In this document: piece after piece, positions 1 to 16,146 of the stretch | Position numbering within the stretch: position 1 is the stretch's first letter | Layout of the letters: every line of letters starts with the position of its first letter | DNA from: Labrenzia sp. PHM005 | GTDB taxonomy: Bacteria > Pseudomonadota > Alphaproteobacteria > Rhizobiales > Stappiaceae | Direction: 5' to 3' | Length of the DNA: 64,000 bases | Assembly (NCBI RefSeq): GCF_006517275.1 | Contig: NZ_CP041191.1 | Location: 3,715,001 to 3,779,000 of the forward strand | The notes under the pieces: generated by a model | Database searches by the model: none | The model's input: the letters and a program-made list of their open reading frames with translations, nothing else | What the model was told of the DNA's origin: nothing | Program-made: the position numbers and the translations under genes

Positions 1-691
1 CTTCCACCTCGATATAAAGCGCCAGCAAATCCTTGATCTCATCGCCGAGCAGATTGCCGTTCTTGTCCGCCATCAAAAAGAAGGTTCGGCCGTCAACCGG
101 GCCGGTGGAGACAAACACCGGCGGGATGCCGCCCGTGAGGCAGAGGTCCGCACAGGCTTTATGTGCCAGCCCGCGGCCCGGGCGCATGGCCCCGGCGTAA
201 CACTTGCCGTCACAGATCTCGCCAGAGAGTTTCCAACGGCCGAGCGGAACTGGATCCGATGGTTGAAAGCCCGTAGGTCCGTCTTCCGTGGCTTCGACCT
301 TGCCGACCTGGATCATGGTGAGATCGCCGCGGTTGACCGGCACGCCCCGCAGATTGACGGGTGTTTCCTTGTTGGCCTTTGCTGGCCCAAACACACCGCG
401 TTTGCCCTGGCCCGACAGCATGTAGGTTCGGGCAGGGGTGGTGCCATCAGCTGGTACCCGGAATACCGGATACGGCCGGAGTTCTAGAAGTCCGGCCTGT
501 TCAAACCGGTTGCCCCACTGAAAACCGCCGCTGCCGGGGTCGTTTTGCGTTGAAGACAGTGCCAGGGCCGCCAGGCCCATGCCACCGGCGAAACACACAG
601 CAAATATGCTCAGAAAAACCAGGAGTGGTTTCGGAACCGCATTCAGATAGCCAACATAAAACGGTGCGTCCTTGGTTTGCCGCCAACTCAT
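1..691 (-). CDS. membrane-anchored Cys-rich protein of the Rieske operon (partial)
   Basis: The reading frame enters at ATG 691 and runs off the window start, giving 230 visible residues with the C-terminus missing. GGAGGTG lies 5 nt before the ATG, which overlaps the stop of the upstream gene (ATGA). One membrane segment spans about residues 20-45 (PKPLLVFLSIFAVCFAGG...); the rest looks soluble and is probably periplasmic. A striking block at about residues 155-190 reads GEICDGKCYAGAM, then HKACADLCLTGGIPP. It has four cysteines and a histidine, suggesting metal or cofactor binding or disulfides. I recognise the block as conserved in uncharacterised membrane proteins but cannot name a function. 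As last visible gene of the operon, it could receive electrons from the heme/Rieske membrane protein; that role is inference. Confidence 0.75.
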   Translation of the reverse strand, partial: MSWRQTKDAPFYVGYLNAVPKPLLVFLSIFAVCFAGGMGLAALALSSTQNDPGSGGFQWGNRFEQAGLLELRPYPVFRVPADGTTPARTYMLSGQGKRGVFGPAKANKETPVNLRGVPVNRGDLTMIQVGKVEATEDGPTGFQPSDPVPLGRWKLSGEICDGKCYAGAMRPGRGLAHKACADLCLTGGIPPVFVSTGPVDGRTFFLMADKNGNLLGDEIKDLLALYIEVE

Positions 692-1755
692 GCCGCACCT
701 CCAATTTCCACCGGATCCACATGGGTCCCAGGTGGCAGAGCATTGGGATCGAGCAAGACTGTCGACCCAATCAGTTTCAGCCGGTAGGTCGAGATTTTCT
801 CGGTGAATGGAGCCGGTGCCCGGCCGTCAGCCAGATTGTACTGGTAGCCGTGCCAGGGGCAGGTGATACAGCCCCACAGCACCTTGCCTTCTCCCAAAGG
901 GCCATTCTGATGCGCGCAGGCGTTGGTGATGGCAGAAAGTTTGCCATCGTATTTGAAGATTGCGACACGCTCATCCTCATTCAGTGTTACGACCTTTGCG
1001 CAGTCTTCATCAATGTCGTCCAAGTCGCCGGCGACAACCCAGCCGTTTTCTTGAAGCGAGGCTTTAGCCGTTTCCTCACCGCGTTCGCGCGCAGCTTCCA
1101 TCCGTCCGGTCATAAAATGCAGCCCGCAGACAAGAACAACGCTGGCCGCCACGACACCGGTGAAGATCGGGTCGGCGGGGCCTTGCAATGCTCCAAACGC
1201 TACATGCAGCACGACAAAGGCGTAGGCGGCATAAATCGACATATGTAGCGCCTTCCAGATCGGCGCTCCGAGAAAACTCAGCCAAAAATCGTGACTGGTA
1301 GCCGCCAGAACAAACAGGATTAGAAGAGCCGCGATGCCAAGGCTTTCAAAGGGAAACCCAAGGACTTGGCCGTAACTTGTGTTGGACGACAGCAGGGCTG
1401 CATATTTGTCTGTTGGCGAAAAATTGAAATACCAGCCGAGAACGTAGTTGGCATGGACCGCGGCAATGCCGGCCGTCAAAACGCCGAAGTGGCGGCGGTT
1501 ATAGAGCAAAGGCAAAAAGCGCCGGTCGAGCCGGGCGAGGGGGCCAATACACAAGATGATCGTCAGCATCAGGAAGGCACAGCTGCCAAAGGCCCGCATC
1601 CTGAGAATTGCGCCGTCGATGGGTTTGCTGACATCTTCAAAGGCGGGGGCGACCCGGATGAACACGAAGAGATAGAGCCCAACGGCAATCAACAGAACAG
1701 CGTCGTAAAAAATCTTGTTCCGGTTCCACAAGACCGGCATGTATTGAACGCTCAT
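688..1755 (-). CDS. ferric-reductase-like membrane domain fused to C-terminal Rieske [2Fe-2S] domain
   Basis: 355 aa. Residues about 15-215 hold five to six hydrophobic helices with spaced histidines (H89, H101, H155, H171, H184), typical of the heme-b ferric reductase/MsrQ-like membrane fold. Residues about 235-345 form a Rieske domain with C280-x-H282 and C299-x2-H302 (ACAHQNGPLGEG ... CPWHG). There is no FAD/NAD module as in true ferric reductases, so electrons should enter through the Rieske cluster. The Rieske half follows the last helix and is probably cytoplasmic. ATG 1755 has GGGGAGG 7 nt upstream and overlaps the previous stop; the gene end overlaps the next start. Inferred role: moving electrons from cytoplasmic Rieske partners across the membrane. 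Confidence 0.85.
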   Translation of the reverse strand: MSVQYMPVLWNRNKIFYDAVLLIAVGLYLFVFIRVAPAFEDVSKPIDGAILRMRAFGSCAFLMLTIILCIGPLARLDRRFLPLLYNRRHFGVLTAGIAAVHANYVLGWYFNFSPTDKYAALLSSNTSYGQVLGFPFESLGIAALLILFVLAATSHDFWLSFLGAPIWKALHMSIYAAYAFVVLHVAFGALQGPADPIFTGVVAASVVLVCGLHFMTGRMEAARERGEETAKASLQENGWVVAGDLDDIDEDCAKVVTLNEDERVAIFKYDGKLSAITNACAHQNGPLGEGKVLWGCITCPWHGYQYNLADGRAPAPFTEKISTYRLKLIGSTVLLDPNALPPGTHVDPVEIGGAA

Positions 1756-1925
1756 TGGGAAGCCTCCCCAGAGGTTTCGCCGTTGGATGGTTTTTCGAGA
1801 AGGACGGCTGGCCGGTCCGCAGGCGGGGATTGGCGAAGCGCCAGGATGGTGAAGAAAGCCAGTGGCAGCGCGATGCCAAGCACTGTCCAGATGCGGGCGT
1901 GCGCGGTCCGGTGAGCCCGTTTCAT
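1752..1925 (-). CDS. 57-residue single-span membrane protein
   Basis: A short ORF from ATG 1925 (cat at 1923-1925), with AAGGAGG 7 nt upstream, to a TGA overlapping the next start (ATGA). It begins MKRAHRTAHARIWTVLGIAL, has one hydrophobic helix at about residues 11-28 after a basic N-terminus, and ends in a polar tail. The start also overlaps the stop of the upstream gene by 4 nt, so it is translationally coupled on both sides. Size and position suggest a small accessory subunit of the neighbouring membrane redox complex. No family is recognised, and the role is inferred from context only. Confidence 0.7.
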   Translation of the reverse strand: MKRAHRTAHARIWTVLGIALPLAFFTILALRQSPPADRPAVLLEKPSNGETSGEASQ

Positions 1926-2143
1926 TCTTCAGCCTCCTTTTCCCGTTCCAAATGGAACCAGCGATAGAGTACCAAGGGCCAGATCAGGCAAATGCCGGGG
2001 ATCAGCAATGGCCGGAAAGCGTAAGACTCCTGTGCAGAAGGCTCGACCCGCTCAATTCCGATGACAAGAAAAAGCACTGCAACGGCCCCGCCGGCATAAA
2101 GGTAATAACGGCCGATATCGATCAAAAACTCAGCGGTCTGCAC
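1922..2143 (-). CDS. 73-residue two-span membrane protein
   Basis: GTG start at 2143, preceded by a purine-rich AAGGGGAAGAAGA Shine-Dalgarno tract. Two hydrophobic helices are visible (about residues 10-30, YYLYAGGAVAVLFLVIG, and 44-62, FRPLLIPGICLIWPLVLYRW), followed by a charged tail REKEAEE. It overlaps the next small membrane gene by 4 nt and lies 71 nt after the TPP-enzyme gene. It is probably an integral subunit of the putative redox complex. Family unknown. Confidence 0.75.
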   Translation of the reverse strand: MQTAEFLIDIGRYYLYAGGAVAVLFLVIGIERVEPSAQESYAFRPLLIPGICLIWPLVLYRWFHLEREKEAEE

Positions 2144-2214
2144 TCTTCTTCCCCTTTACCGGTTACGGGAGGCATTCGTAGTTCCGGCCTCAGCCAGATA
2201 GAAATGGCGCTGCG

Positions 2215-4191
2215 TTACACGAGATCCGCATCGGTGATGATTTCCACCAGCGACGGCCCTTCCTGAGCGATGGCTTCAGCAAGGGCGGTGTTCAATTCCG
2301 CAGGATCTGTGACCCTGTGTCCATGCCCGCCGCACAGCCGGGCGAACGCGGCAAACGACGGGTTGGTGAGATTGGTTTCCCAGACCGGCCATTCTCCTGA
2401 CTTTTGCTCCTTGGTGATTTTCCCGAGCTGGCTGTTGTTCAAAAGAATATGCGTGATGTTCATGCTGTATTTGACGGCGGTGGTGAACTCCATTGCATAT
2501 TGGCCAAAGCCGCCGTCGCCAGAGATGGAGATGACCTTGCGGCCCTTGAACTCGTCGAAATCCTGGGTCGCGCACCAGGCGCCCAAAGCGGCCGGCAGGC
2601 TGAAACCGATGGAGCCAAGATATCCAGACATCAGGATCCGCTGGCCACGCGGCTCAAAATAACGTCCGAAAGAATAGGTGTTGTTGCCGACATCGACCGG
2701 AATGATCGCATCTTCCGGGCAAAGTTCGGTGAGCGCTTTAAATACGGCTGCGGAGTGAATACCCCCGCCATGATCTTCTGTCAGGCGCCGGTCTTTTTCT
2801 TCGCGCCAAATCGCCCAGCGTTCTGTGATTTCGCTGATCTGATTGGGGGCATCCGAAGGTTTGTTCACCTTGTCCTGCACGGCATCACAGAAGGTGCCGA
2901 TTTCGCCCCAGACCGGCAAGGTCACCGGATGGAACTTGCCGAGCTGCATACGCTCAAAATCCACCTGGATGATCGGCTTGTAGGGGGCAATGCCGGTGTG
3001 GTTCGCAAAGGAAGACCCAAGCGACACAATTAGATCAGCTTCGTTCATGAACCAGCTGGCAATTGGTGTGCCGGACCGGCCCAGAACACCGCAAGACAAA
3101 GGATGGGTGTCAGGAATGAGCCCCTTGCCTTTGAAGGTGGTAAGGACCGGAGCTCCGAGTTTTTCTGCCAGGGCTATGACTTTATCGCGCACATCCTTGG
3201 CGCCATATCCAAGGACGATCACGGGGCGTTTGGCTCCGTTGATCAGCGTGATGGCGTCAGTTAGGTCGTCATTCGACGGTGTCACCTCAATGCGGCTCAA
3301 CCGGCCTTCGGGTTGTCCTGCATCCTTGGTGCTTGGCAGGGTTTGCACATCGTCGGGAAAAATCAGATTGGCGACGTCCCGATCGACAATTGCGGTTTTT
3401 AAGGCCAGCGACATCAGCTCAGAATGTTTTGAGGAGCTGAGCACGGGCTGGGAGAATTTGGAGACCGCTTCAAACGCGGATTTCAGATCGATGTCTTGAA
3501 AAGCGCCCGGGCCGAACACCTGGGTCTGAACCTGTCCCGTTAATGCCAGAACGGGCGCACGATCGACTTTGGCGTCCCAAAGCCCGGTCAAGAGATTGGT
3601 CGCCCCAGGTCCGGCGATCGTCAGGCAGGCCGCGGGTTTGCCGGTCAATTTGCCGTAGGCGGAGGCGGCAAACGCTGCAGCGCCCTCATGGCGGATGCCG
3701 ATAAACTCGAGAGTGCCCTTGTTGGCCTGCAGACGGATGGCATCGGCGAGGCCGAGATTGGAATGCCCGACCATGCCGAACACCCGTTTGACGCCCCAAT
3801 TGACCATGGTTTCGGCCATCACATCGGTGACTGTGCGCTCATGCTCCGGTTCAGCTTCAAGTCCGACCAGAATGTCCCCATCCTCGATCTTGAGCGGATA
3901 GACTTTCTGGCCACTGTCTTCATGGCCGCCGGGTGGTTTGCCTGTGAGCGGATCAAAATCCCAGCCGTGCCACGGGCAGCGGATCCAGCACTTGCCGTCT
4001 GTTCCTTTTTCGATGGAGCCTTCACCGAGCGGCCCGCGCTGGTGCGGGCAGTGGTTGTCCATTGCCGCCCATTGGCCATCGAAGTGGGACAGGCAAATAG
4101 AGGTTGTTCTGGCTGTGACCGTTTTTACCCGGCCTTCCGGCAGATCATCCACGTGGCCGACTTTGATCCAGTCGAGATTTTGAGCGTCCAT
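2215..4191 (-). CDS. Rieske [2Fe-2S] domain fused to a thiamine-diphosphate (acetolactate-synthase-like) enzyme
   Basis: 658 aa from ATG 4191; GGAGGAATTC just upstream fixes this start over TTG 4212. Residues 1-115 form a Rieske domain (C48-x-H50, C72-x2-H75). Residues about 118-658 form a three-part TPP enzyme: N-terminal PYR domain with catalytic-type Glu169 (RHEG), a central domain, and a C-terminal PP domain with the GDG motif at 558-560 and the downstream NN of the TPP/Mg site. The family includes acetolactate synthase, pyruvate oxidase, oxalyl-CoA and benzoylformate decarboxylases; the substrate cannot be read from sequence. The Rieske fusion suggests that electrons from 2-oxoacid decarboxylation leave through an iron-sulfur cluster. 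It sits 21 nt downstream of the GltB-like/Rieske gene. Confidence 0.88.
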   Translation of the reverse strand: MDAQNLDWIKVGHVDDLPEGRVKTVTARTTSICLSHFDGQWAAMDNHCPHQRGPLGEGSIEKGTDGKCWIRCPWHGWDFDPLTGKPPGGHEDSGQKVYPLKIEDGDILVGLEAEPEHERTVTDVMAETMVNWGVKRVFGMVGHSNLGLADAIRLQANKGTLEFIGIRHEGAAAFAASAYGKLTGKPAACLTIAGPGATNLLTGLWDAKVDRAPVLALTGQVQTQVFGPGAFQDIDLKSAFEAVSKFSQPVLSSSKHSELMSLALKTAIVDRDVANLIFPDDVQTLPSTKDAGQPEGRLSRIEVTPSNDDLTDAITLINGAKRPVIVLGYGAKDVRDKVIALAEKLGAPVLTTFKGKGLIPDTHPLSCGVLGRSGTPIASWFMNEADLIVSLGSSFANHTGIAPYKPIIQVDFERMQLGKFHPVTLPVWGEIGTFCDAVQDKVNKPSDAPNQISEITERWAIWREEKDRRLTEDHGGGIHSAAVFKALTELCPEDAIIPVDVGNNTYSFGRYFEPRGQRILMSGYLGSIGFSLPAALGAWCATQDFDEFKGRKVISISGDGGFGQYAMEFTTAVKYSMNITHILLNNSQLGKITKEQKSGEWPVWETNLTNPSFAAFARLCGGHGHRVTDPAELNTALAEAIAQEGPSLVEIITDADLV

Positions 4192-4212
4192 GAATTCCTC
4201 CATCAGAACCAA

Positions 4213-5832
4213 TCAGCTGGATCGGGCTACACCACCGTACGCGACGCCGGACAGATCTGCCATCTCCCGTTTCCAAGTCGTCAAATCATCCGGATTGAAT
4301 TGATTAAGGTGCGTGTATCCGCAGGCACGTGCCATCACTTGCATCAGTTCAACAGAAGCTTCGAAAAAGTTGGTGAGCTGGCGGGCCGATTTTTCAATGA
4401 CCAGCCGGTTCACCAAATTGGGTTTCTGGGTCGCAATCCCGACCGGACAGTTATTCGTGTGGCAGGCGCGCATCGCGATACAGCCAATCGCCTGCATCGC
4501 CGCATTGGAGACCGCGATTGCATCTGCCCCAAGCGCCATGGCTTTGATAAAATCGGCAGGTTTCCGCAAGCCGCCGGTAATCACCAGCGATACGTCGGCA
4601 CGACCCAGTTTGTCCAGATGGCGCCGGGCTCTCGCCAAAGCTGGAATCGTTGGCACAGAGATGTTGTCGCGAAAGATGATTGGGGCGGCTCCCGTTCCCC
4701 CGCCGCGGCCATCCAGGATGATGTAGTCAACCCCGACCTCCATCGCGGCATCGATATCTTTTTCGATATGCTGGGCCGAGAGTTTGTAGCCAATCGGAAT
4801 GCCGCCGGTTCGGCTACGGACTTCGTCCGCAAATTCTTTCACCTGGGCGCAATTGGTCCAATCAGGAAACCGCGGCGGAGAGATGGCGTCATCGCCTTCG
4901 TTCAGTCCACGGACTTCGGCAATCTTTCCTTTGACCTTAGCACCGGGCAAATGTCCGCCAGTGCCGGTTTTGGCACCTTGTCCGCCTTTGAAATGAAAGG
5001 CTTGTGCCTTGCCAAGTTTATCCCAGCTGAAACCAAACCGGGATGAGGCCAATTCATAGAAATAGCGGGAGTTTGCTTCCTGCTCCTCGGGCAACATGCC
5101 GCCTTCGCCTGAACAAATGCCGGTTCCCGCGAGTTCTGCGCCCCGGGCCAGAGCGATTTTCGCAGGTTCGGAAAGGGCGCCGAAACTCATGTCGGAGACA
5201 AACAGCGGGATCTTCAGATGAAGCGGTTTTTGTGCGTTTGGTCCAATGACAACATCGGTTCCGACCGGATCCTCGTCCAAGAGGGGGAAGCGTTGCAGCT
5301 GTGCGGTCAGGAGTTGAATATCATCCCAATCCGGCAGCTGGACCCGCGGCACACCCATGGCGTCAACCACACCGTGGTGGCCGGTTTTTGAAAGACCATC
5401 CCGCGCGTAGGACTGGATCAGTCCAGTGTAGGGTTCTTCTTCCGTGCCATGGCTGGTGTCTGCATAGAGCCCCAGATATTTGTCGCGCTGAAACGGCTGC
5501 GGATTGTCATTGGCCCAAGCGGCAATTTCGTCGGCATCGACCAAGATCTGATCGCCTTCGACCCAGCTCTTGAATTTCGGCAAGGCCTCGGAATTGTTGT
5601 ATTCAGACACACCGCTGTCGATCCGGTAATCCCAGTAGTGAACCCCGCAGATCAGGTTGTCACCATCTACGTAGCCATCGGACATCAATGCGCCGCGGTG
5701 CAGGCAACGGCCATAAAACACCGACACCTCTTCATCAAACCGGACCACAACGAGATCAACATCTTCGACCAGTGCATATTGCGGATCCCGATCCGGCAAC
5801 GCGCTTAATTTGGCGACAACTTCAGTTCTCAT
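4213..5832 (-). CDS. Rieske domain fused to FMN-binding glutamate-synthase-like domain
   Basis: 539 aa. The N-terminal 100 residues carry a Rieske motif (C43-x-H45, C62-x2-H65). Residues about 170-520 match the FMN/[3Fe-4S] synthase domain of glutamate synthase: SDMSFGALSEPAK, GGQGAKTGTGGHLPG, LDGRGGGTGAAP, and a cysteine cluster CIAMRACHTNNCP (C-x5-C-x4-C) of the 3Fe-4S type. The glutaminase domain of true GltB is missing, so it cannot make glutamate from glutamine by itself. It belongs to the stand-alone GltB2-like family, whose substrates are mostly unknown. SD-like GGGGGATT precedes ATG 5832. It appears to be the first gene of the Rieske operon, 53 nt after the antiporter. Confidence 0.87.
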   Translation of the reverse strand: MRTEVVAKLSALPDRDPQYALVEDVDLVVVRFDEEVSVFYGRCLHRGALMSDGYVDGDNLICGVHYWDYRIDSGVSEYNNSEALPKFKSWVEGDQILVDADEIAAWANDNPQPFQRDKYLGLYADTSHGTEEEPYTGLIQSYARDGLSKTGHHGVVDAMGVPRVQLPDWDDIQLLTAQLQRFPLLDEDPVGTDVVIGPNAQKPLHLKIPLFVSDMSFGALSEPAKIALARGAELAGTGICSGEGGMLPEEQEANSRYFYELASSRFGFSWDKLGKAQAFHFKGGQGAKTGTGGHLPGAKVKGKIAEVRGLNEGDDAISPPRFPDWTNCAQVKEFADEVRSRTGGIPIGYKLSAQHIEKDIDAAMEVGVDYIILDGRGGGTGAAPIIFRDNISVPTIPALARARRHLDKLGRADVSLVITGGLRKPADFIKAMALGADAIAVSNAAMQAIGCIAMRACHTNNCPVGIATQKPNLVNRLVIEKSARQLTNFFEASVELMQVMARACGYTHLNQFNPDDLTTWKREMADLSGVAYGGVARSS

Positions 5833-5885: not shown

Positions 5886-7133
5886 TCAATCTTCCGTAAT
5901 ATTGGGCCGCATAGGCGGCATGGCAGCCATTTCCGCAGCTCCGTCGTTTCCCGCCATTCGGGCGCCGTATAACTTGGCAAGAGGCACTGCACTGATCCCA
6001 TGCAGAACAGCGCTGATCCAAACAGCGTTGATCGCAAGGTTCAAAAGGGTTTCGCCAATTTCATGATCGATCTGATCGACAATCAGCAGTGCAAACAGGG
6101 CGGTCGCCAATCCGCGCGGACCGAACCAGCCAAAAAACAGCTTTGTTGTCGGCGCGGCATCTGTCCCTAAAAGCGAGAGCCAGACCGCCAGAGGACGGAC
6201 CACAAACAGGCTTGTCAGAATAATCGTGAGGCTGAGGGCATCTAGGTGAGCAACGGCGTTGGGTAACAGGGCCAGGCCGATCAGGAAAAATGCGCCCCAG
6301 CTCAGCATCTGTCCTTCACTTTCGGTGAATTCGTAGATGAACGCACATTGGCCCTTGATGACATTGCCAAAACATAATCCAGCAATGAAGGCCGCGATAA
6401 ACCCGTTGCCATCAATCATTCCGGCCGAGAGATAGGCGCAGCCAGCCATTGCCAGCGCACCAATGCCTTCGATTTCGGCGGTGGTCATTTTTTGTTTTTT
6501 GGCTGCAAGGAACAAAACACCACCGATGCCACCGATAATAGCACCGACCAAGGGGCCGAAAATCAGCTGTTTTGCGCCAAAGAGCACCCAATTGGTGGCA
6601 TCTTGCTGCATCATTTCTGCAGTCAAGCTGGCAAACAGCAGGATGACCGGCAGCGCGAGCCCGTCATTCAGCCCGCTTTCCAGCGTCAGGGCGCGGCGGA
6701 CACGTTCAGGAACAGCTTTGTTTGTTACAACAGCTTGCCCGAGAGCTGCATCGGTTGGCGCAAGCAAAGCTGCGACAAGCGCTGCAACGATCAGCGGATA
6801 TGCCGGCAACAGGAGTGCGGCAAAAGCGGTTCCAATCAAAACCGACAAAGGCAAACCCATGACCAGCATACGAAAAGGCCATTGATGCCGTTCACGCAGG
6901 CTCTTGAGATTGATTTGGGCAGCATCCAGAAACAGAAGAACAATCAGCGCGAGTTCAGCAACGATGTGAAGTAGGTGTTCGGCTTCCGCAACAGGCATTT
7001 GACCTGCTTCCGCCATCAGAAACCCAAATGCTAAAAACAGCATGGGGGCGGTTAGGATTCCGTTCGACAGCTTCTTGGCCAAAAGCGTGTAGGCCATCGT
7101 GAACATTCCCAACATCAACAGCCCGTGTGTCAC
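5886..7133 (-). CDS. cation:proton antiporter (CPA1/NhaP-like)
   Basis: 415 aa, hydrophobic throughout, with about 12 predicted membrane helices. A polar pair in the core (LAPTDAALGQAVV, residues about 126-138) and the glycine-rich WFGPRGLATALFALLI segment near residue 340 are typical of CPA1 sodium/proton exchangers. There is no cytoplasmic TrkA or cyclic-nucleotide domain. The ion is not determinable. It is transcribed toward the Rieske operon with only 53 nt between them and no visible terminator, so cotranscription is possible. A link between ion gradient and redox chemistry is speculative. Confidence 0.85.
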   Translation of the reverse strand: MTHGLLMLGMFTMAYTLLAKKLSNGILTAPMLFLAFGFLMAEAGQMPVAEAEHLLHIVAELALIVLLFLDAAQINLKSLRERHQWPFRMLVMGLPLSVLIGTAFAALLLPAYPLIVAALVAALLAPTDAALGQAVVTNKAVPERVRRALTLESGLNDGLALPVILLFASLTAEMMQQDATNWVLFGAKQLIFGPLVGAIIGGIGGVLFLAAKKQKMTTAEIEGIGALAMAGCAYLSAGMIDGNGFIAAFIAGLCFGNVIKGQCAFIYEFTESEGQMLSWGAFFLIGLALLPNAVAHLDALSLTIILTSLFVVRPLAVWLSLLGTDAAPTTKLFFGWFGPRGLATALFALLIVDQIDHEIGETLLNLAINAVWISAVLHGISAVPLAKLYGARMAGNDGAAEMAAMPPMRPNITED

Positions 7134-7433: not shown

Positions 7434-8738
7434 CTATATCCCGAGCCGGTCCCTGACTCTGTAGACCATCACAGAAGGTGCGAGGAACCAAGGGTTTCCG
7501 GTGTAGAGTGGTCTGGTGCTGTTCGGGATTTTCTCGAACGCGGAAAGAACAGGTTCCCGTCCGGCTGCCTTTTGGCCGATACGCATGCCAAGGTAACTCG
7601 CCATGCCAACACCCGAGCCGCAATAACCATTGGCATAGAAGAGGCCCTGGTCTTCGCCGCAGTGGGCGAGCGTGTCGAAGGTGTAGCCGACAAACCCCAT
7701 CCAGCCGTGACTGACTTTGTATCGGGCAAGATCCGGGAAGAGGGCGCACATATCCAGGTGCAGCTTGCTGGCGCTGTTGCGTGGATCCGTTTCGCTCAAA
7801 GACACCCGGCCGCCGAAAATCACCCGTTTGCGGTCCGGCGACAGGCGATAGTAGTAGACCAGCTTGCGCGTGTCAGAGAGCACACGATTGGTCGGAAACA
7901 GCCGGTCGACGAGATCTTCCGGCAACTCTTCGGTCGCAATGACATAAGAGCCGATCGGGATGATGCGGCGTTGATGCCAAGGCGACAGCGGCCCGGAATA
8001 GCCATTGGTCGCCAGTATAACTTTTCCGGCTGTAACAGCGCCTTGTTCCGTCAGCACCTTGAAGCCGGATCCGGCCCGCTCCAGCGACAGCGCCCGGCAA
8101 TTGCCCTTGACCTGTGCTCCGAGTTTCAATGCGCGCAAGAGAAGGGATGGCAGGTATTTCGACACATCGATGCTGCAATGATGCGGATAGACGATGCCGC
8201 CGAAATAGGCATCCGTGCCAAGCTCGCTTGCCATCTCTGACTTCGGAACCATGAAGGCGTCCGGTTTCCAGACCGGATGGCCGCTTTCTGCTTCCCTCGC
8301 GAGTTTGCCATATAGATGCGGTTTGTGGGCGCCGTGAAAGCGGCCCACGTCCTTCAATCCCATGTCGAGACCGTCCGCTGACAGATCATGCATATAGTCA
8401 AGCGATGCTTGGCCTTCCTGGCACAATTGCGTTGCCAGCTCAGCTCCATAACGGCGGGACAGTGTGGAGAAGGAAGGTTTCAGGCTGGTGGAGAGCTGGC
8501 CGCCGTTGCGAAGGCTGCAGCCCCAGCCTGGGTCTTCCGCATCAATCACCAACGTGCTCATCCCTTCGCGCGCGGTTTGAAGGGCAGCATTGAGGCCTGT
8601 GTACCCAGCGCCGATAATCAGGACATCGACTTCGGCAGCAAGCTCATGTTCAGGGAGCGGTACATTGGGGGCGATGTCCTGCCAATAGGGCCTAGACTGA
8701 AAATCCGCCGCAAACACATCGCTCCACATTGTCTTCAA
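7434..8738 (-). CDS. FAD-dependent amine oxidoreductase (DAO/PuuB family)
   Basis: 434 aa. An N-terminal Rossmann motif VDVLIIGAGYTGLNAA (residues about 37-52) binds FAD, and the GCSLRNGGQLS segment downstream is typical of gamma-glutamylputrescine oxidase-type DAO proteins. The expected reaction is oxidative deamination or demethylation of a secondary or primary amine to an aldehyde, imine or keto product. It is the last gene of the transporter operon, 5 nt after the GMC oxidoreductase. With the spermidine-type transporter and the aldehyde dehydrogenase nearby it fits an amine-degradation pathway. The exact substrate is unknown. Confidence 0.85.
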   Translation of the reverse strand: MKTMWSDVFAADFQSRPYWQDIAPNVPLPEHELAAEVDVLIIGAGYTGLNAALQTAREGMSTLVIDAEDPGWGCSLRNGGQLSTSLKPSFSTLSRRYGAELATQLCQEGQASLDYMHDLSADGLDMGLKDVGRFHGAHKPHLYGKLAREAESGHPVWKPDAFMVPKSEMASELGTDAYFGGIVYPHHCSIDVSKYLPSLLLRALKLGAQVKGNCRALSLERAGSGFKVLTEQGAVTAGKVILATNGYSGPLSPWHQRRIIPIGSYVIATEELPEDLVDRLFPTNRVLSDTRKLVYYYRLSPDRKRVIFGGRVSLSETDPRNSASKLHLDMCALFPDLARYKVSHGWMGFVGYTFDTLAHCGEDQGLFYANGYCGSGVGMASYLGMRIGQKAAGREPVLSAFEKIPNSTRPLYTGNPWFLAPSVMVYRVRDRLGI

Positions 8739-8743
8739 TCCTC

Positions 8744-10366
8744 TTAAGTGTTCCGGGTGTCTTCCAGAATAAGATCCGCGCCTTTTTCTCCGACCATGAT
8801 CGCCGGTGCATTGGTGTTGCCGGAGGTCACTGTCGGGAAGATTGAGGCATCGACCACCCTGAGGCCATCGACACCATAGACCCGCAGACGCTGATCGACG
8901 ACGTTTTCGGTTTTATCCGTTCCCATCCGGCACGTGCTGACCGGGTGGAACACGGTGGAACAGCGGTTGCGGACATCTTCCAGCATGTCCTCATCGCTTT
9001 TAACGTCCGGTCCCGGTGCGATCTGGCTGTCGATGACCTCTTGAAACGCTGGGGCGGCAGCGATCTTGCGCAAGAGCTTGCAGCCTTCGATCATTTCCTT
9101 GCAGTCATGGTCTGTGCTCAAGGAATTGGGATGAATGGCCATCGGCTCAAATGCATCGGTCGATTTCAGCTCCAAATGCCCGCGGCTGGTTGGCCGGGTT
9201 GGCTGCATACCGAACAGGAAACCCGGGAATGGATCCGGATTCATTAGCGGCCGTTCTCCCTTCGGCGCCTTGGTGTAGCTGACCGGTGAGAAATAGAGCT
9301 GCATGTTCGGCCGTTCGCAGTCCGGATTGCCCTTCACAAATCCGCCCGCCTGATTGAGGCTCAGTGCCAAGGGGCCGCCGCGTGTCAGAACATAGCGGAT
9401 GCCTTGCGCCAACTTGCCCCACCAAGGATACAGCTGCTGGTTCAAAGTCGGCACCTTGGACCGGTAGAGGTGATCAAGGCCAAGGTGGTCCTGCATGTTC
9501 TTGCCGACCGCCGGGCTGTGGACTGCAGAGGCAATGCCTTTGGACTGAAGTTCGGCTCCGTCGCCGATCCCGGACAGCATCAGGATTTGCGGCGAGTTGA
9601 CCGCTCCTGCACTCAGGATAACTTCGCGCCGTGCCGAGACCGTTTGTTCGCGGCCACCACTTTCGTAGACAACTCCAGTTGCCCGGCTGTTTTCCAGAAG
9701 AATGCGCTTGGTGTGGGCCTTCGTCAGGATCGTTACGTTCGAACGCTTCTTGGCCCGGGCAAGATAGGCCCGGGCAGTGGACATGCGGAAGCCGTCCTTG
9801 GCTGTGATCTGGTAGTGGCCAACGCCTTCCTGGTCTGCGCCATTGAAGTCGGAATTAAATTTGAACCCGGCTTGTTCGCTTGCCTTGAAGAAGTTCTGGC
9901 ACAATGGATGTGTGTACTTCGTCATGCTGGACACATGAAGGGGGCCATCACCACCACGGAAGGCGTCGGCACCAGCGTCATTGGTTTCGGACCGTTTGAA
10001 ATAGGGCAGGACATCGTCCCAGCCCCAGCCGGTGTTGCCCATCGCTTTCCAGTCATCAAAGTCCGCGTGCTGGCCGCGGATGTAGACCATGGCATTGATC
10101 GAGCTGGACCCACCTAGAACCTTGCCGCGCGGCCAATATCCTTCACGGTTGTTCAGGCCTGGATCCGGTTCTGTGTAGTACATCCAGTTGATGTGTTTGT
10201 TGTAAAACGCCTTGCCGTAGCCGACCGGAACCCAAATCCAGAAGTTCAGATCCGAGCCGCCGGCCTCCAGAACGCAGACGGAATATTTGCCGTCTTCAGA
10301 CAAGCGGTCTGTGACGGCGGCACCGGCAGAACCGGCGCCGACGATGACAAAGTCAAACTCAGCCAT
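8744..10366 (-). CDS. GMC family oxidoreductase (choline dehydrogenase-like)
   Basis: 540 aa. ATG 10366 is chosen because it has AGGGA upstream and lies just after the permease stop, while the longer frame (10438) would overlap the permease. FAD-binding starts at once (DFVIVGAGSAGAAV). GMC signatures PRGKVLGGSSSINAMVYIRG and the SAGAVNSPQILMLSGIG motif follow. The C-terminal active-site histidine lies in FHPVSTCRMG, and GNTNAPAIMVGEKGADLI closes the FAD site. The family oxidises alcohols to aldehydes; BetA oxidises choline. A betaine-pathway role is possible with the downstream-acting aldehyde dehydrogenase, but the neighbourhood lacks classic betB/betI, so the substrate may be another hydroxylated amine. 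Confidence 0.88.
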   Translation of the reverse strand: MAEFDFVIVGAGSAGAAVTDRLSEDGKYSVCVLEAGGSDLNFWIWVPVGYGKAFYNKHINWMYYTEPDPGLNNREGYWPRGKVLGGSSSINAMVYIRGQHADFDDWKAMGNTGWGWDDVLPYFKRSETNDAGADAFRGGDGPLHVSSMTKYTHPLCQNFFKASEQAGFKFNSDFNGADQEGVGHYQITAKDGFRMSTARAYLARAKKRSNVTILTKAHTKRILLENSRATGVVYESGGREQTVSARREVILSAGAVNSPQILMLSGIGDGAELQSKGIASAVHSPAVGKNMQDHLGLDHLYRSKVPTLNQQLYPWWGKLAQGIRYVLTRGGPLALSLNQAGGFVKGNPDCERPNMQLYFSPVSYTKAPKGERPLMNPDPFPGFLFGMQPTRPTSRGHLELKSTDAFEPMAIHPNSLSTDHDCKEMIEGCKLLRKIAAAPAFQEVIDSQIAPGPDVKSDEDMLEDVRNRCSTVFHPVSTCRMGTDKTENVVDQRLRVYGVDGLRVVDASIFPTVTSGNTNAPAIMVGEKGADLILEDTRNT

Positions 10367-10379
10367 GATGTCCCTGCGT

Positions 10380-11237
10380 TTAAGCGTTTTTATCGCGCTG
10401 GATGAGAATGGACAGCAGCGCCAAGAGGCCTGAGCCAACCATCAGGAAGAACGACACGGCGTTTAGAACCGGCGTGGAGCCGACCTTAGCCATGCGGTCA
10501 TACATGGTGATGGTGAGCGGGGCTTCGGAGCCTACCAGGAACAGCGTCGTGTTGAAGTTTTCAAACGATACCAGGAAGGCAACAATCCCTGCTGCGAACA
10601 TCGCCGGCCGCAGGAAGGGCAGGGTAATCGTCCTGAGAACGCGTGCCCGGCTGGCGCCAAGGTTGAAAGCAGCTTCTTCCATGGTTTCATCAAACTTCTT
10701 CAAGCGCGCGGTGATCACCAGAGAGGTGATCGTGGCGATGAAGGAAAATTGTCCGAGTACAACAAGCAGCATGCCCGGTCGCAGGAATTCCAGCTCTAGG
10801 TCGAACTTGTTTTCCACGAAGTTCGCCGTGTCGCTGGCCAGAACCAGGATCGAGATACCCAGGATCACACCCGGGATCACGAGAGGCACGACCATCATGA
10901 TGTAGAAGAAGTTCTTGGCCGGAAAATCCCCGCGCACAAACAGGAAGGCGTTGGTGGTGCCGACAAAAACTGAGAGCGCAGCAACGAAAATCGCAATCAC
11001 AAAGGAATAGTAGAGCCCCTGCAAAAGCCGACGATCGTGGAACATGCCCAGTTTCGGTTCGGTGTCGGAAAAGAACCAGTCCAGTGTGAAACCTTGCCAT
11101 GGCAAAGCCGGGAACAAGCTGTCATTGAACGCAAACGCGCCAGCGGAGATGAGCGGTGCTGCCAGAAAGATGAAGAAGGCAAGCACATAGAGCCGGTAGC
11201 CAAAGAGGAACGGCGTGGTCTTGTTGGTCGCAAGCAT
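10380..11237 (-). CDS. ABC transporter permease, PotC-like (spermidine/putrescine type)
   Basis: 285 aa with six membrane helices. The cytoplasmic EAA loop reads EEAAFNLGASRARVLRTITLP, the ATPase-contact motif of binding-protein-dependent permeases. It is the second permease of the operon, after the PotB-like gene (11 nt gap). Similar to PotC/YdcV in the polyamine/opine/thiamine family. It forms the membrane channel with the preceding permease and the PotA-like ATPase. Confidence 0.88.
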   Translation of the reverse strand: MLATNKTTPFLFGYRLYVLAFFIFLAAPLISAGAFAFNDSLFPALPWQGFTLDWFFSDTEPKLGMFHDRRLLQGLYYSFVIAIFVAALSVFVGTTNAFLFVRGDFPAKNFFYIMMVVPLVIPGVILGISILVLASDTANFVENKFDLELEFLRPGMLLVVLGQFSFIATITSLVITARLKKFDETMEEAAFNLGASRARVLRTITLPFLRPAMFAAGIVAFLVSFENFNTTLFLVGSEAPLTITMYDRMAKVGSTPVLNAVSFFLMVGSGLLALLSILIQRDKNA

Positions 11238-11248
11238 GATCGTCCTCC

Positions 11249-12115
11249 TCAGCTCTTGGCAACAGTGTTGGCGAGCGTCTGTCCGCTAAGCTTCAAGCCC
11301 AACCAGATGACGAACGAGGTGAACATCAACAGCAGCATGCCGAAGGCCGCGCCACCTTCCCAGTTAAACCGGGTGATGAACTGGTTGTAGATCTGTTCGG
11401 TAAACCAGCTGGAGTTTTTGCCGCCCAGAAGGATCGGGGTGAGGTAGGAACCAGCGGTCAGCATGAAGGTGACGATACAACCAGCAACAATCCCCGGCAT
11501 GGCGTAAGGTACGATGATCCGGCGCAGAACTGTAAAGCCGTTGCCACCCAGATTGTAACCCGCCTCGATCATGGAATTGTCCATACCATCCAGTGTTGAG
11601 ACCAGCGGTACGATCATGAACAGGATTACAGTGTAGACCAGGCCGACGATGACGGCTGCGTCGTTGTAGAGGAACTCAATCGGTGTGCCGGTGACGCCAG
11701 TCCATAATAGAAAGTTCGATATCACGCCTGTTTCCCGCAAAAGGAGAATCCAGCCGAAGGAGCGGATCAGATCGCTGACCCAAAGCGGGATCAGGCACAG
11801 CAGAAACAAGCCGCCGCGCGCCCGCGGCCCGGCGATCTTGGCAATGTAATAAGCAATCGGAAAACCGATCAGCAGGGCCAAGGCGGTCACCAGAAGCGAC
11901 ATCGACCCAGTGCGCAGCAGTGTGTTCCAGTAAATCGGTTCGTTGATGAATTCCAGATAGTTGGCAAAGCTGTATTCATAGACCCGCGGTGCGACTTTCT
12001 CTCGCAGCGACAACATCACCATGCCGATGTGCGGCAGGATGATCAGAAGAATGATCCAGAGTGCAAAGGGCGCAAACAAAAGGATCAACGACAGGCGTTT
12101 GATGTCCTTTTGCAT
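11249..12115 (-). CDS. ABC transporter permease, PotB-like
   Basis: 288 aa, six membrane helices. It has the EAA-type loop IEAGYNLGGNGFTVLRRIIVP. The start overlaps the stop of the ATPase gene by one base, indicating translational coupling. It pairs with the PotC-like permease; the type I importer family handles polyamines, opines or similar cationic amines. Confidence 0.88.
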   Translation of the reverse strand: MQKDIKRLSLILLFAPFALWIILLIILPHIGMVMLSLREKVAPRVYEYSFANYLEFINEPIYWNTLLRTGSMSLLVTALALLIGFPIAYYIAKIAGPRARGGLFLLCLIPLWVSDLIRSFGWILLLRETGVISNFLLWTGVTGTPIEFLYNDAAVIVGLVYTVILFMIVPLVSTLDGMDNSMIEAGYNLGGNGFTVLRRIIVPYAMPGIVAGCIVTFMLTAGSYLTPILLGGKNSSWFTEQIYNQFITRFNWEGGAAFGMLLLMFTSFVIWLGLKLSGQTLANTVAKS

Positions 12116-13236
12116 CAGGCGGGCTCCTCATTTGCAAAGCACATGGCTTGCTTGGAGGACCAGACAAGTCGGACGTCTTCACCCGGTTTGATGTCATTAT
12201 GTCCAGTTAGGGTCACATCGGATTCAATCAGTTCCCCATTGCCGGAGCGCACAAGAACGCGGCTGTTGGCGCCGTTGAACAACAGGCTGTCGACAACGCC
12301 GTCCATCTGGTTGTCGCCGTCAACACCGCTCTTTGCCGCCTCAGACGCGCGCACGGTGTGAATGAATTCCGGCCGCACGAAGATGTCGACTTTGGAGCCT
12401 TCGCCGATCTTGCTGCCGCCAGCGGCGGAGAAGTTCATCGGCAGGCCTTGGCTTGTCTCCACTTTGCCGCCAGTGCCATCGCTGGATTTGACGGTGCCGG
12501 ACCACCGGTTGCTGTCACCGACAAACCCGGCGACGAATGCTGTCTTCGGTTCATGGTAGAGCTCTTGTGGCGTGCCGATCTGTTCGAACTGTCCCTGGTT
12601 CATGATCGCGACGTTGTCGGACATGACCAATGCTTCGGATTGGTCATGGGTGATGTAAATAAAGGTGGTGTTGAACTGGTGCTGCAGCAGTTTCAATTCG
12701 ATCTTCATCGCTTCGCGCAGCTTCAGATCGAGCGCGCCGAGCGGTTCATCGAGCAATAGAACGTCCGGGTCGAGCACCATGCAGCGGGCAATCGCGATGC
12801 GCTGTTTCTGACCACCGGACAGCTGGTGAATTTCGCGTTCGGCTACATCCGGCAGCGCGATCCGCTCCAGAACGTCGTGAACTTTTTTCTTGATGTCCGC
12901 ATTGCTGGCGCCGTTGCAGCGCAACCCGTAGGCGATGTTCTCATAGACATTCATCATCGGGAACAGCGCCAGGTGCTGAAACACCATCTTAACGTTGCGC
13001 TTGTTCGGCGGTGTCCCCAGAACGGATTTGCCCTTGATCTTGATCTCGCCGGATGTCGGCTCCTCGAAGCCGGCAATCATGCGCATCAAGGTGGTTTTGC
13101 CGCAGCCGGACGGCCCCAGAATGGAAAAGAACGAGCCGCTTGGAATATCGAAGGACACGCCCTTCACGGCCTGGAAGGACCCGAAGTTCTTGGTCAATCC
13201 GGCGCATTCGAGGTCGTAATGGGGAGGATTTGTCAT
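12115..13236 (-). CDS. ABC transporter ATP-binding protein, PotA-like
   Basis: 373 aa from ATG 13236. An in-frame GTG at 13281 would add 15 poorly family-like residues; neither start has a strong Shine-Dalgarno. Walker A GPSGCGKT (about residue 48), signature LSGGQKQR, Walker B VLLLDEPLGALD, H-loop ITHD. The C-terminal about 120 residues form the TOBE regulatory domain found in PotA/UgpC/MalK-like subunits. It energises the two adjacent permeases. A hairpin between it and the binding-protein gene may set the ratio of the two proteins. Confidence 0.88.
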   Translation of the reverse strand: MTNPPHYDLECAGLTKNFGSFQAVKGVSFDIPSGSFFSILGPSGCGKTTLMRMIAGFEEPTSGEIKIKGKSVLGTPPNKRNVKMVFQHLALFPMMNVYENIAYGLRCNGASNADIKKKVHDVLERIALPDVAEREIHQLSGGQKQRIAIARCMVLDPDVLLLDEPLGALDLKLREAMKIELKLLQHQFNTTFIYITHDQSEALVMSDNVAIMNQGQFEQIGTPQELYHEPKTAFVAGFVGDSNRWSGTVKSSDGTGGKVETSQGLPMNFSAAGGSKIGEGSKVDIFVRPEFIHTVRASEAAKSGVDGDNQMDGVVDSLLFNGANSRVLVRSGNGELIESDVTLTGHNDIKPGEDVRLVWSSKQAMCFANEEPA

Positions 13237-13335
13237 GGATTTTAAGACACTACTGGAGAGGTGATGAAGTTGGGGGGACACCGTTTATGGCGGCATCCCC
13301 CGAGATTTAGGCTTTCGCTCTTCGGCGTATGGCCA

Positions 13336-13368
13336 ATTGGCGGGAGCAGATAAGCTATGTCCGCCAAT
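13336..13368 (-). other. intergenic hairpin between binding-protein and ATPase genes
   Basis: The inverted repeat ATTGGCGG (13336-13343) / CCGCCAAT (13361-13368) has a 17-nt loop. It lies just after the substrate-binding protein stop. On the minus (coding) strand no T-run follows, so it is not a strong terminator. It could stabilise the 3' end of the binding-protein message, a common way to raise binding protein over transporter subunits. Confidence 0.4.
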
Positions 13369-13388
13369 TTTACTTTTAGATCAGTCGA

Positions 13389-14465
13389 TTAGCCGCCGGT
13401 TGCCGCTTTGATTTTCTCCAAAGTTTTGCCTTCCATGTCTTCCACGCCCGGAGGAATATTGGCAAAGAACTTGAGATTGTTGATGTCGGCGTCGGTGAAG
13501 GCCGCGTTCACGGCAGCTTTCTTGTCTGCCGGAAGCAAGTCCTTGCCGCCTTTGACGGCTGCGATTGCGCCGGAGCTGGCGGACATCACAGTGACGTTTT
13601 CCGGACGCAGCACAAAGTTGATCCACTTATATGCGGCATCATCAGCCTTGGCCTTGCGTGGCAGGGCAAAGGTGTCGATCCAGGCCAGAGCGCCTGTTTC
13701 CGGCGGAACGAAAGTGATGTTCGGGTTCTGGTCGAACAGCTTGTAAGCCGTGGAATCCCAGGTCTCGGAGGCCACGATTTCGCCGGAAAGCATCATCGCG
13801 CTGAGGTCGTCGCCGCCTTTCCAGTAGGCTTTGATGTTGGCCTTACATTCGATCAGCTTGTCAGCGACTTTATCCAAAATGCCCTGGTATTTTTCCAGGT
13901 CAGAGTAAGCCTCGAACGGGTTCTCACCCATGGCGAAGGCAGTGCCGAGCAAGATTGTGCGCTTCAAACGCATGGAGGTCTTGCCTTTGTAGGCCGGATC
14001 GCAAAGATCGCCCCAGCCCTTGAAGTCAGGTGCCTTCGTCTTGTCGGCCATCAGGCCGGAGGTGCCCCATTGGTGCGGAACCGCGTAGACTTCGCCCTCA
14101 ATGGTGGTGTTTTCTTTCACGCCGCCAAGGAGGCTCCCTTCCATGACGCTGGTGTCGATCTTTGACAGGTCCAGCGGCTTGTAGATGTCATATTCCAGCT
14201 GAGCTGCGTAAATACGGTCGTGGCTTGGCTGAGCAAGGTCAAATCCAGCACCGCCGGTCGCGCGCAGCTTGGCAATCATTTCCTCGTTGTTGGAAAAGGT
14301 GACTTCCACTTCAATGTCCGGATATTCGGCTTCGAATTTCTGGATCAATTCATCGGGAGCATAGGAGCCCCAGGTCAGAAGGCGCAGGGTTTCGGCCTGT
14401 GCCGAACTAGCGCCCGCAAGCATTGTTGCCGCCAAAAGGCCGGTAAGAGTTGACTTTAGATGCAT
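13389..14465 (-). CDS. periplasmic substrate-binding protein, PotD/PotF-like
   Basis: 358 aa. A signal peptide ends at about residue 24 (GLLAATMLAGASSAQA), then the mature protein begins ETLRLLTWGSYAPDELIQKF, typical of spermidine/putrescine-family binding proteins (LNVYNWSDYI-type start). It delivers its ligand to the PotABC-like transporter encoded downstream. First gene of the operon. Its upstream region carries copies of the AGWCCAATT motif shared with the MocR divergent promoter. Ligand unknown: polyamine, opine or quaternary amine are plausible. Confidence 0.87.
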   Translation of the reverse strand: MHLKSTLTGLLAATMLAGASSAQAETLRLLTWGSYAPDELIQKFEAEYPDIEVEVTFSNNEEMIAKLRATGGAGFDLAQPSHDRIYAAQLEYDIYKPLDLSKIDTSVMEGSLLGGVKENTTIEGEVYAVPHQWGTSGLMADKTKAPDFKGWGDLCDPAYKGKTSMRLKRTILLGTAFAMGENPFEAYSDLEKYQGILDKVADKLIECKANIKAYWKGGDDLSAMMLSGEIVASETWDSTAYKLFDQNPNITFVPPETGALAWIDTFALPRKAKADDAAYKWINFVLRPENVTVMSASSGAIAAVKGGKDLLPADKKAAVNAAFTDADINNLKFFANIPPGVEDMEGKTLEKIKAATGG

Positions 14466-14513
14466 AACGTCCCCCTGAAATCATCATTTTTGTCAGTGAA
14501 TACGGTAGGTTTC

Positions 14514-14561
14514 AATTGGACTGCGAAATATATCCATTCCAGATATTTTTACAGACCAATT
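14514..14561. promoter_or_regulatory. putative MocR operator copies upstream of transporter operon
   Basis: AATTGGACT at 14514-14522 is AGTCCAATT on the minus strand, and AGACCAATT occurs at 14553-14561 on the plus strand. The two face each other in the 111-nt gap before the binding-protein gene. The same nonamer occurs three times between mocR and the enolase-superfamily gene. Shared motif is seen; binding by the MocR protein is inference. Confidence 0.45.
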
Positions 14562-14576
14562 TGCACCTCAAAAACG

Positions 14577-16064: not shown

Positions 16065-16075
16065 ACAATTCTCCC

Positions 16076-16146
16076 AATTGGTCTGGGAGATTGCGCAAAA
16101 CGGACCTTCTATCAAGTCCAATTCTGGATAACTTGACAGTCCAATC
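16076..16146. promoter_or_regulatory. divergent control region with three copies of AGWCCAATT
   Basis: Between mocR and the enolase-superfamily gene there are direct repeats AGTCCAATT (16115-16123) and AGTCCAATC (16138-16146), 23 bases start to start or about two helical turns. An inverted copy AATTGGTCT (16076-16084) overlaps the mocR ribosome site region. The arrangement suits a MocR dimer binding direct repeats and controlling both directions, with autoregulation. The repeats are seen; regulator identity is inferred. Confidence 0.5.

Follow-up and report, generated by a model that had tools for sequence, protein, structure and literature searches.

Three Rieske fusion proteins encoded beside a conserved membrane core in Labrenzia sp. 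PHM005: a candidate modular system for transmembrane electron transfer

Gene content of the locus

We have analysed a stretch of 64,000 nucleotides from the marine, Roseibium-type bacterium Labrenzia sp. PHM005 (contig NZ_CP041191.1, positions 3,715,001 to 3,779,000; hereafter the window), which begins with a packed set of minus-strand genes encoding three different Rieske [2Fe-2S] fusion proteins. Taken together, these genes look like an undescribed route for passing metabolic electrons across the cell membrane. The list of open reading frames gives them in the minus-strand order GLT, TPP, S73, S57, FRD and CYS. GLT (4213..5832; 539 amino acids, aa) joins an N-terminal Rieske domain (Pfam Rieske, 44.5 bits) to a GltB-like flavin mononucleotide (FMN)/3Fe-4S domain (Glu_synthase, 306 bits), and TPP (2215..4212; 665 aa) joins one to a pyruvate-oxidase-like thiamine diphosphate (ThDP) enzyme (Pfam Rieske and TPP_enzyme N/M/C). 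S73 (1922..2143) is a small protein with two hydrophobic segments by hydropathy, and S57 (1752..1925; 57 aa) has one hydrophobic stretch as judged by eye. FRD (688..1755; 355 aa) combines a ferric-reductase/STEAP/NOX-like membrane domain with a C-terminal Rieske domain (Pfam Ferric_reduct and Rieske). The membrane-anchored Cys/His protein CYS (1..691) is cut by the window edge; the whole gene (253 aa) lies at 8930-9691 of L009, a longer genome stretch of the same locus that reaches past this edge.

GLT directly abuts TPP, 71 bases separate TPP from S73, and the pairs S73/S57, S57/FRD and FRD/CYS each overlap by 4 bases, so that the six packed genes of a preliminary description, made from the letters of this stretch, were confirmed from the reading frames. 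The extent that it gave to the set was too narrow, although all six genes are present. A gene for a CPA-type Na+/H+ (K+/H+-like) antiporter, NHE (5886..7133, minus strand; 415 aa; Pfam Na_H_Exchanger, 131.9 bits), precedes GLT with 53 bases between the two, outside the range described, and beyond the window edge S85 (L009:8676-8933; 85 aa, two hydrophobic segments by hydropathy) overlaps the end of CYS by 4 bases. The claim of three Rieske proteins with different partners was borne out by Pfam, which assigned Glu_synthase, TPP_enzyme N/M/C and Ferric_reduct. All three carry intact ligands of the form C-x-H...C-x2-H by motif and alignment, and these are conserved in aligned homologues: in GLT the first pair is found in 54/54 rows and the second in 53/54 (one gap), in TPP the ligands are kept in 45/45 rows and in FRD in 101/101.

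Conservation of the neighbourhood

A profile search for FRD across all species found at least 564 encoding stretches, the best 80 of which were kept with their flanks and are the basis of the 80-locus counts given here. These 80 were all labelled Alphaproteobacteria except L053 (a Myxococcota metagenome-assembled genome (MAG), 3.7-kb contig) and L062 (a Nitrosovibrio MAG), both of which are probably mis-binned alphaproteobacterial contigs; L062 has neighbouring genes in common with Acetobacteraceae loci. CYS adjoins FRD in 80/80 loci (in L039 only its start is present, a contig end cutting the remainder), and S73 occurs in 78/80, both misses (L044 and L053) starting at a contig edge. A small frame with a hydrophobic segment directly follows CYS in 84 of 96 judgeable loci, a count that combines two locus sets and has no chance control; the two sets overlap (L056/L117, L068/L119), and the loci are thus not all independent. 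The core S73(+S57)-FRD-CYS, which a small membrane gene follows in most cases, is thereby shown to be a real conserved neighbourhood.

Of the 80 loci, 43 have GLT and 32 full TPP; the two occur together in 28, and 33 have neither, a 25-bit GLT match in L040 having been left out as the Rieske part of FRD. Roseibium-type loci make up 19 of the 80; among the other 61, GLT occurs in 24 and TPP in 14. The preliminary expectation that all six genes form one conserved neighbourhood therefore holds for the membrane core, while GLT and TPP are optional, and their placement relative to the core differs between loci. NHE lies directly upstream of GLT in 17/20 Roseibium-type and 9/33 other loci, and it is still beside GLT where GLT sits away from the core (L138, L140 and L143). 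Outside the Roseibium-type group, median identities were 79% for GLT (33 loci), 72% for TPP, 57% for FRD, 46% for S73 and 43% for CYS. GLT is the most conserved part of the set, and because this conservation reaches so far outside the genus, a chance arrangement is ruled out.

Two side observations concern these loci. An FRD locus in Roseibium aggregatum PHM038 (L086, 10001-11044) belongs to a different lineage, being 55% identical and having neither GLT nor full TPP in its flanks, in contrast to the 17 nearest Roseibium-type FRDs, which are 85-91% identical. A DUF5996-like gene directly follows TPP or GLT in L135 (8974-9714, +), L140 (8612-9457, +) and L143 (5148-6002, -).

Co-occurrence of the genes was assessed in 385 evenly drawn alphaproteobacterial genomes; by size and handles, the draw is taken to be the same for the FRD, GLT and TPP counts. 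FRD was found in 18 of them, Rieske-bearing GLT in 9 and TPP in 15. Rieske-GLT is present in 8/18 genomes with FRD (FRD+) and 1/367 without it (FRD-; Fisher p 3e-11), and TPP in 7/18 and 8/367, respectively (p 7e-7), both values being uncorrected for ancestry. The association of GLT and TPP with the core is more than adjacency: in G406 and G524, GLT lies approximately 18-19 kb and TPP approximately 64-66 kb from FRD, while neither gene shares a contig with FRD in G504 and G599. In a set of 51 genomes picked for their FRD, GLT or TPP status, CYS was detected at full length in 19/21 FRD+ and 0/30 FRD- genomes, with weak matches to its C-terminal part in 2 of these 30. In a separate draw across Pseudomonadota, FRD occurred in 7/398 genomes, every one in the class of the window.

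Proteins of the membrane core

The best fold matches of the FRD model are STEAP1, STEAP2 and STEAP4, tied with NOX5. An arginine, R87, is kept in 101/101 rows, with the spacings R87-14-H101 and H171-13-H184. FRD thus shows the conserved Arg that replaces the first canonical heme His in the YedZ/STEAP group, and it lacks the four heme His in transmembrane (TM) helices TM3/TM5 that mark the long form of NOX/FRE, having R87 instead beside H171/H184; both criteria are from PMC3591440 (here and below, statements on this paper and on PMC5676040, PMC3174974 and PMC5859297 refer to excerpts of them). No Pfam match to a flavin adenine dinucleotide (FAD)/NADPH dehydrogenase domain was found in FRD at E up to 0.01, the C-terminal domain being the Rieske domain, and its score against the MsrQ model NF003831 was 38.6 bits, below the cut-off of 130. 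H89, H155 (in S-H-D-F-W) and H213 (in 99/101 rows) are additional invariant residues close to the inner face. By the charge rule, the N-terminus and the Rieske domain would be placed in the cytosol, as is the dehydrogenase domain of NOX. In the model, FRD has the STEAP/NOX fold, and its Rieske domain, cytosolic by charge, takes the position that the flavin dehydrogenase occupies in NOX.

The two most divergent FRD loci, L130 and L131 (48% identity, one genus), carry a gene for a Rieske-FMN_red fusion directly after FRD (L130 3362-4474, -; L131 6257-7381, +), and CYS was not found in the genomes of either.

CYS consists of one N-terminal anchor, an OB-fold domain, to which structure matches were limited (residues 55-140), and a second beta domain with the motif C-x12-H-x2-C-x3-C (AlphaFold model, mean predicted local distance difference test score (pLDDT) 85.4). 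The motif residues C164, H177 and C180 are found in 97/97 rows and C184 in 96/97. The protein, so far without a name, is membrane-anchored and probably periplasmic. Short relatives (approximately 150-170 aa) of its C-terminal domain with the C...H..C...C set, probably secreted, are encoded in L183 (3893-4351, -), L184 (3928-4398, -), L185 (3942-4427, +), L188 (3852-4370, +) and L189 (2195-2641, -); in L184, L185 and L188 the short gene is followed by genes for a Cys-containing protein and SCO1/SenC.

S73 and S57 have no match in Pfam or NCBIfam. In S73, G18, F25, R44, P49, W55 and P56 are invariant (1.00) in 92 rows. In 25 of 99 loci its frame takes in S57 and extends as far as the start of FRD, fused translations having been read in L050, L074, L085 and L094; 67 loci have room for a separate S57 and 7 were unassigned. 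Since one frame spans both in these 25 loci, we argue that S73 and S57 work together.

Cytosolic enzymes and the exchange of their [2Fe-2S] domains

With its Glu_synthase match, GLT has the FMN-type domain of glutamate synthase (GltS), and its cysteines C451/C457/C462 (in 54, 53 and 54 of 54 rows) fit the GltS 3Fe-4S pattern C-x5-C-x4-C. Against the full-length GltS model PRK11750 it scored only 135 bits (cut-off 1047), covering positions 865-1156 of 1490, and no glutaminase domain was found in Pfam and NCBIfam scans. In the QGAKTGTGGHLPG stretch, GLT has H294 in 54/54 rows where GltS has a Gln, which we take to be part of the GltS 2-oxoglutarate site.

TPP probably starts at an ATG 21 bases further in, at position 4191, since most listed homologues are 658 aa long; a Roseibium sp. 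record is 97% identical. The best NCBIfam model was the pyruvate oxidase PRK08611 (398.5 bits, under its cut-off of 742), the cut-off of PRK09124 was likewise not reached (318 bits against 792), and the closest sequence in the PDB was Escherichia coli PoxB (228 bits). PoxB runs 45 residues past the match and TPP only 5; the additional tail is presumably the membrane/quinone contact of PoxB. The catalytic Glu (E176, 45/45 rows) and the ThDP motif GDG...NN are present in TPP, with G565 in 45/45 rows, D566 and G567 in 44/45, N593 in 44/45 and N592 in 34/45 (His in 10).

Five GLT matches without a Rieske segment were found in FRD- genomes. One (G707) is cut by a contig end; in the other four (L158-L161) a tandem CDGSH replaces the Rieske domain, by motif in 4/4 and by Pfam in the three scanned (L158-L160). 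The GltB domains of these proteins are 67-69% identical to that of GLT, and in a tree of catalytic domains they form one clade (99/100) beside the Rieske forms, the deeper forks being weakly supported. By motif, 53 of 70 GltB-like rows carry Rieske, 4 tandem CDGSH and 13 neither. Two rows without a tag, L163, which is at a contig end, and L072, whose tag was not recovered, fall within the Rieske side of the tree, and eleven further rows with neither tag come from FRD+ and FRD- genomes. Sorted by FRD status, Rieske forms are in FRD+ genomes in 8/9 cases and CDGSH forms in 0/4 (p 0.007). Similarly, two CDGSH domains precede Rieske in TPP proteins from 5/7 evaluable FRD- and 0/7 FRD+ cases (p 0.02). 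These CDGSH, Rieske and ThDP proteins are encoded in L165 (7001-9613, -), L166 (6998-9655, -), L136 (7001-9391, -), L167 (6329-8959, +) and L168 (6125-8932, +), with the Pfam order CDGSH, Fer4_19, CDGSH, Rieske, TPP in L165, L166 and L168; L136 and L167 were recognised by motif only. Downstream of this gene in L165 come those for FMN_red and the antiporter.

Tandem CDGSH-glutamate synthase fusions are the type 5 CISD architecture (PMC3174974), and a 2018 phylogeny associated CDGSH with Glu_synthase, Fer4_19 and Rieske_2 domains (PMC5859297). What is new here is the same GltB domain behind tandem CDGSH in four FRD- genomes and the addition of CDGSH to 5/7 FRD- TPPs.

Genes flanking the operon

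Past the window edge, genes for a CopA-type copper ATPase and a CueR regulator (L009 5706-8631, i.e. 3294 to 369 bases before the window zero point) converge with the operon end, and they are adjoined by a TonB-dependent receptor gene and ExbB/ExbD-like and TonB-like genes (L009 545-5285; ExbB/D and TonB by eye). CueR/CopA neighbours were seen in none of the 80 best FRD loci. On the other side, window positions 7434-16121 hold an amine-type cluster with an FAD oxidoreductase and a GMC oxidoreductase (Pfam), in which a MocR-like regulator and genes of an ABC transporter were recognised by eye.

Proposed electron route and its alternatives

The reading that we favour, and to which we give roughly even chances, is a modular transmembrane electron-transfer system in which Rieske-tagged cytosolic enzymes feed a Rieske-tagged STEAP/MsrQ-like hub and, through it, a periplasmic acceptor. 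The predicted fold, topology and domain swaps fit an entry of electrons from cytosolic Rieske-tagged enzymes; the substrates, the direction of flow and the acceptor we infer. Judged from enzyme class alone, GLT would most likely oxidise an amino acid to a 2-oxo acid and TPP a 2-oxo acid to a decarboxylated acid, and the two in succession would form a short oxidative path. Electrons would exit through the enzymes' own Rieske domains, hop to the FRD Rieske domain at the cytosolic side, pass through the membrane by way of a b heme at the predicted outer pair H101/H184 and reach the periplasmic Cys/His centre of CYS; H171, H89, H155 and H213 may provide a second heme or a quinone site near the inner face. 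NHE could balance ions (H+, K+ or NH4+). The donors would be interchangeable, sharing a hub loaded through one-electron Rieske-Rieske contacts; in one lineage the optional cytosolic enzymes include a Rieske-tagged FMN reductase.

A number of observations weigh against this reading. GLT and TPP are not obligatory, 33/80 loci having neither, and 10/18 FRD+ genomes lack both Rieske-GLT and TPP. In one of the FRD+ genomes (G590) the Rieske model finds no tagged enzyme, its sole other match being a 195-aa frame, and FRD must therefore draw on different donors in that genome. Conversely, TPP also occurs in the 8/367 FRD- genomes, its Rieske-only form in two FRD- genomes, G400 and G703 (Rieske-only loci L135 and L164), and G460, a genome that is 67% complete, has Rieske-GLT but no detected FRD. 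G588 and G741, 2 of the 21 FRD+ genomes searched, lack CYS. The sample of CDGSH-GLT is small (n=4), and the shared ancestry of the genomes makes the Fisher p-values overstate independence. Confidence in the FRD model is middling (pLDDT 74.7), the hydropathy scan gives five of six expected membrane segments, just one K/R lies in inner loop 4-5, and without the first canonical NOX His a transfer through two hemes is not assured. Given H294, the substrate of GLT may differ from 2-oxoglutarate, and it may not be glutamate either.

Another possible explanation is a quinone-linked system, in which FRD passes enzyme electrons to ubiquinone, with CYS and the small TM proteins as assembly or structural parts. 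Respiration is the commonest fate of such electrons, PoxB, the closest solved relative of TPP, is quinone-dependent, and H89, H155 and H213 of FRD lie near the inner face. We nevertheless regard this as unlikely: CYS is beside FRD at every one of the 80 loci with a Cys/His set not needed in a mere structural subunit, and FRD-superfamily proteins of known function send electrons outward (PMC3591440, PMC5676040). Somewhat less probable still is a STEAP-like metalloreductase, whose core would reduce periplasmic Fe3+ or Cu2+ held by CYS with the enzymes as incidental electron sources. The STEAP1, STEAP2 and STEAP4 matches (tied with NOX5), the small weak relatives of the CYS C-terminal domain in operons with SCO1/SenC (a copper-chaperone family) and the CueR/CopA genes adjoining the locus in the window genome would suit it, but those copper genes recur at none of the 80 loci and the association with GLT and TPP would be left unexplained.

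Reverse flow, in which reductant from the core would drive a reductive amination in GLT and act as a redox switch on TPP, seems to us the least probable arrangement. GltB domains in GltS do act reductively; GLT, though, has no glutaminase domain and the operon no GltD-like gene, TPP is oxidase-like, and the membrane potential favours electrons moving outward. The Rieske domains might also be sensors or cluster stores, a role suggested for some CDGSH proteins, and regulate the enzymes and the antiporter instead of carrying current. CDGSH proteins can transfer electrons or clusters (PMC5859297), and the Rieske/CDGSH swap would agree with this reading as well. It is quite improbable, however, given that the domains are joined to redox enzymes of the flavin and ThDP types and to a membrane domain of the heme type, and given the co-occurrence with FRD and CYS.

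If the modular transmembrane system is real, a NOX/STEAP-type conduit would be loaded by one-electron Rieske contacts and not by a flavin dehydrogenase, and several enzymes could share it. More tentatively, we propose a plug-and-socket network, in which exchangeable His-ligated [2Fe-2S] plugs (Rieske or CDGSH) on GltB-like, pyruvate-oxidase-like and FMN reductase enzymes decide the socket, FRD+ genomes using Rieske plugs towards CYS and FRD- genomes mostly CDGSH. Such a network, if true, would be a new transmembrane electron route and the first functional setting for CDGSH-glutamate-synthase fusions. The excerpts of PMC3174974 and PMC5859297 leave the role of the CDGSH domains in type 5 CISDs open, and the exchange between Rieske and CDGSH on one catalytic domain offers a direct, testable handle on these (NEET) domains.

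Comparison with known systems

In open-licence PMC full text, outside which most subscription papers lie, we found neither the operon nor CYS described, nor any protein that joins Rieske to GltB or TPP. The preliminary statement that no such pathway is described stands to that extent, although the architecture of FRD was already known: a Rieske extension of the ferric reductase domain is model M4 of a 2013 survey (PMC3591440), in the excerpts of which no operon, partners or function are described for it.

The individual proteins differ from their known relatives in their Rieske domains and in their company. FRD has a Rieske domain in place of the FAD/NADPH dehydrogenase of NOX, FRE and SpNOX and an Arg in place of their first canonical His; compared with STEAP metalloreductases, it has no NADPH domain and is accompanied by CYS. 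The type 5 CISDs share with GLT the GltB domain (at the 67-69% identity given above) and an N-terminal His-ligated [2Fe-2S] carrier, but GLT has Rieske instead of tandem CDGSH and is associated with FRD. PoxB has ThDP domains and motifs in common with TPP, which is distinguished by its N-terminal Rieske domain, the lack of the C-terminal tail and scores below the family cut-offs.

By analogy, the nearest working parallel to a shared FRD hub is Fre-MsrQ-MsrP of E. coli. In this MsrQ/YedZ system a protein of the FRD fold likewise moves cytosolic electrons to a periplasmic protein, a soluble flavin reductase is a possible donor (PMC5676040), and an Arg likewise stands where the first heme His would be (PMC3591440). 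The system at our locus would differ in that Rieske is fused to the membrane protein, the donors are Rieske-tagged and the proposed acceptor is CYS and not a molybdoenzyme. The Rieske-FMN_red gene beside FRD in L130 and L131 parallels the Fre-MsrQ pair (PMC5676040).

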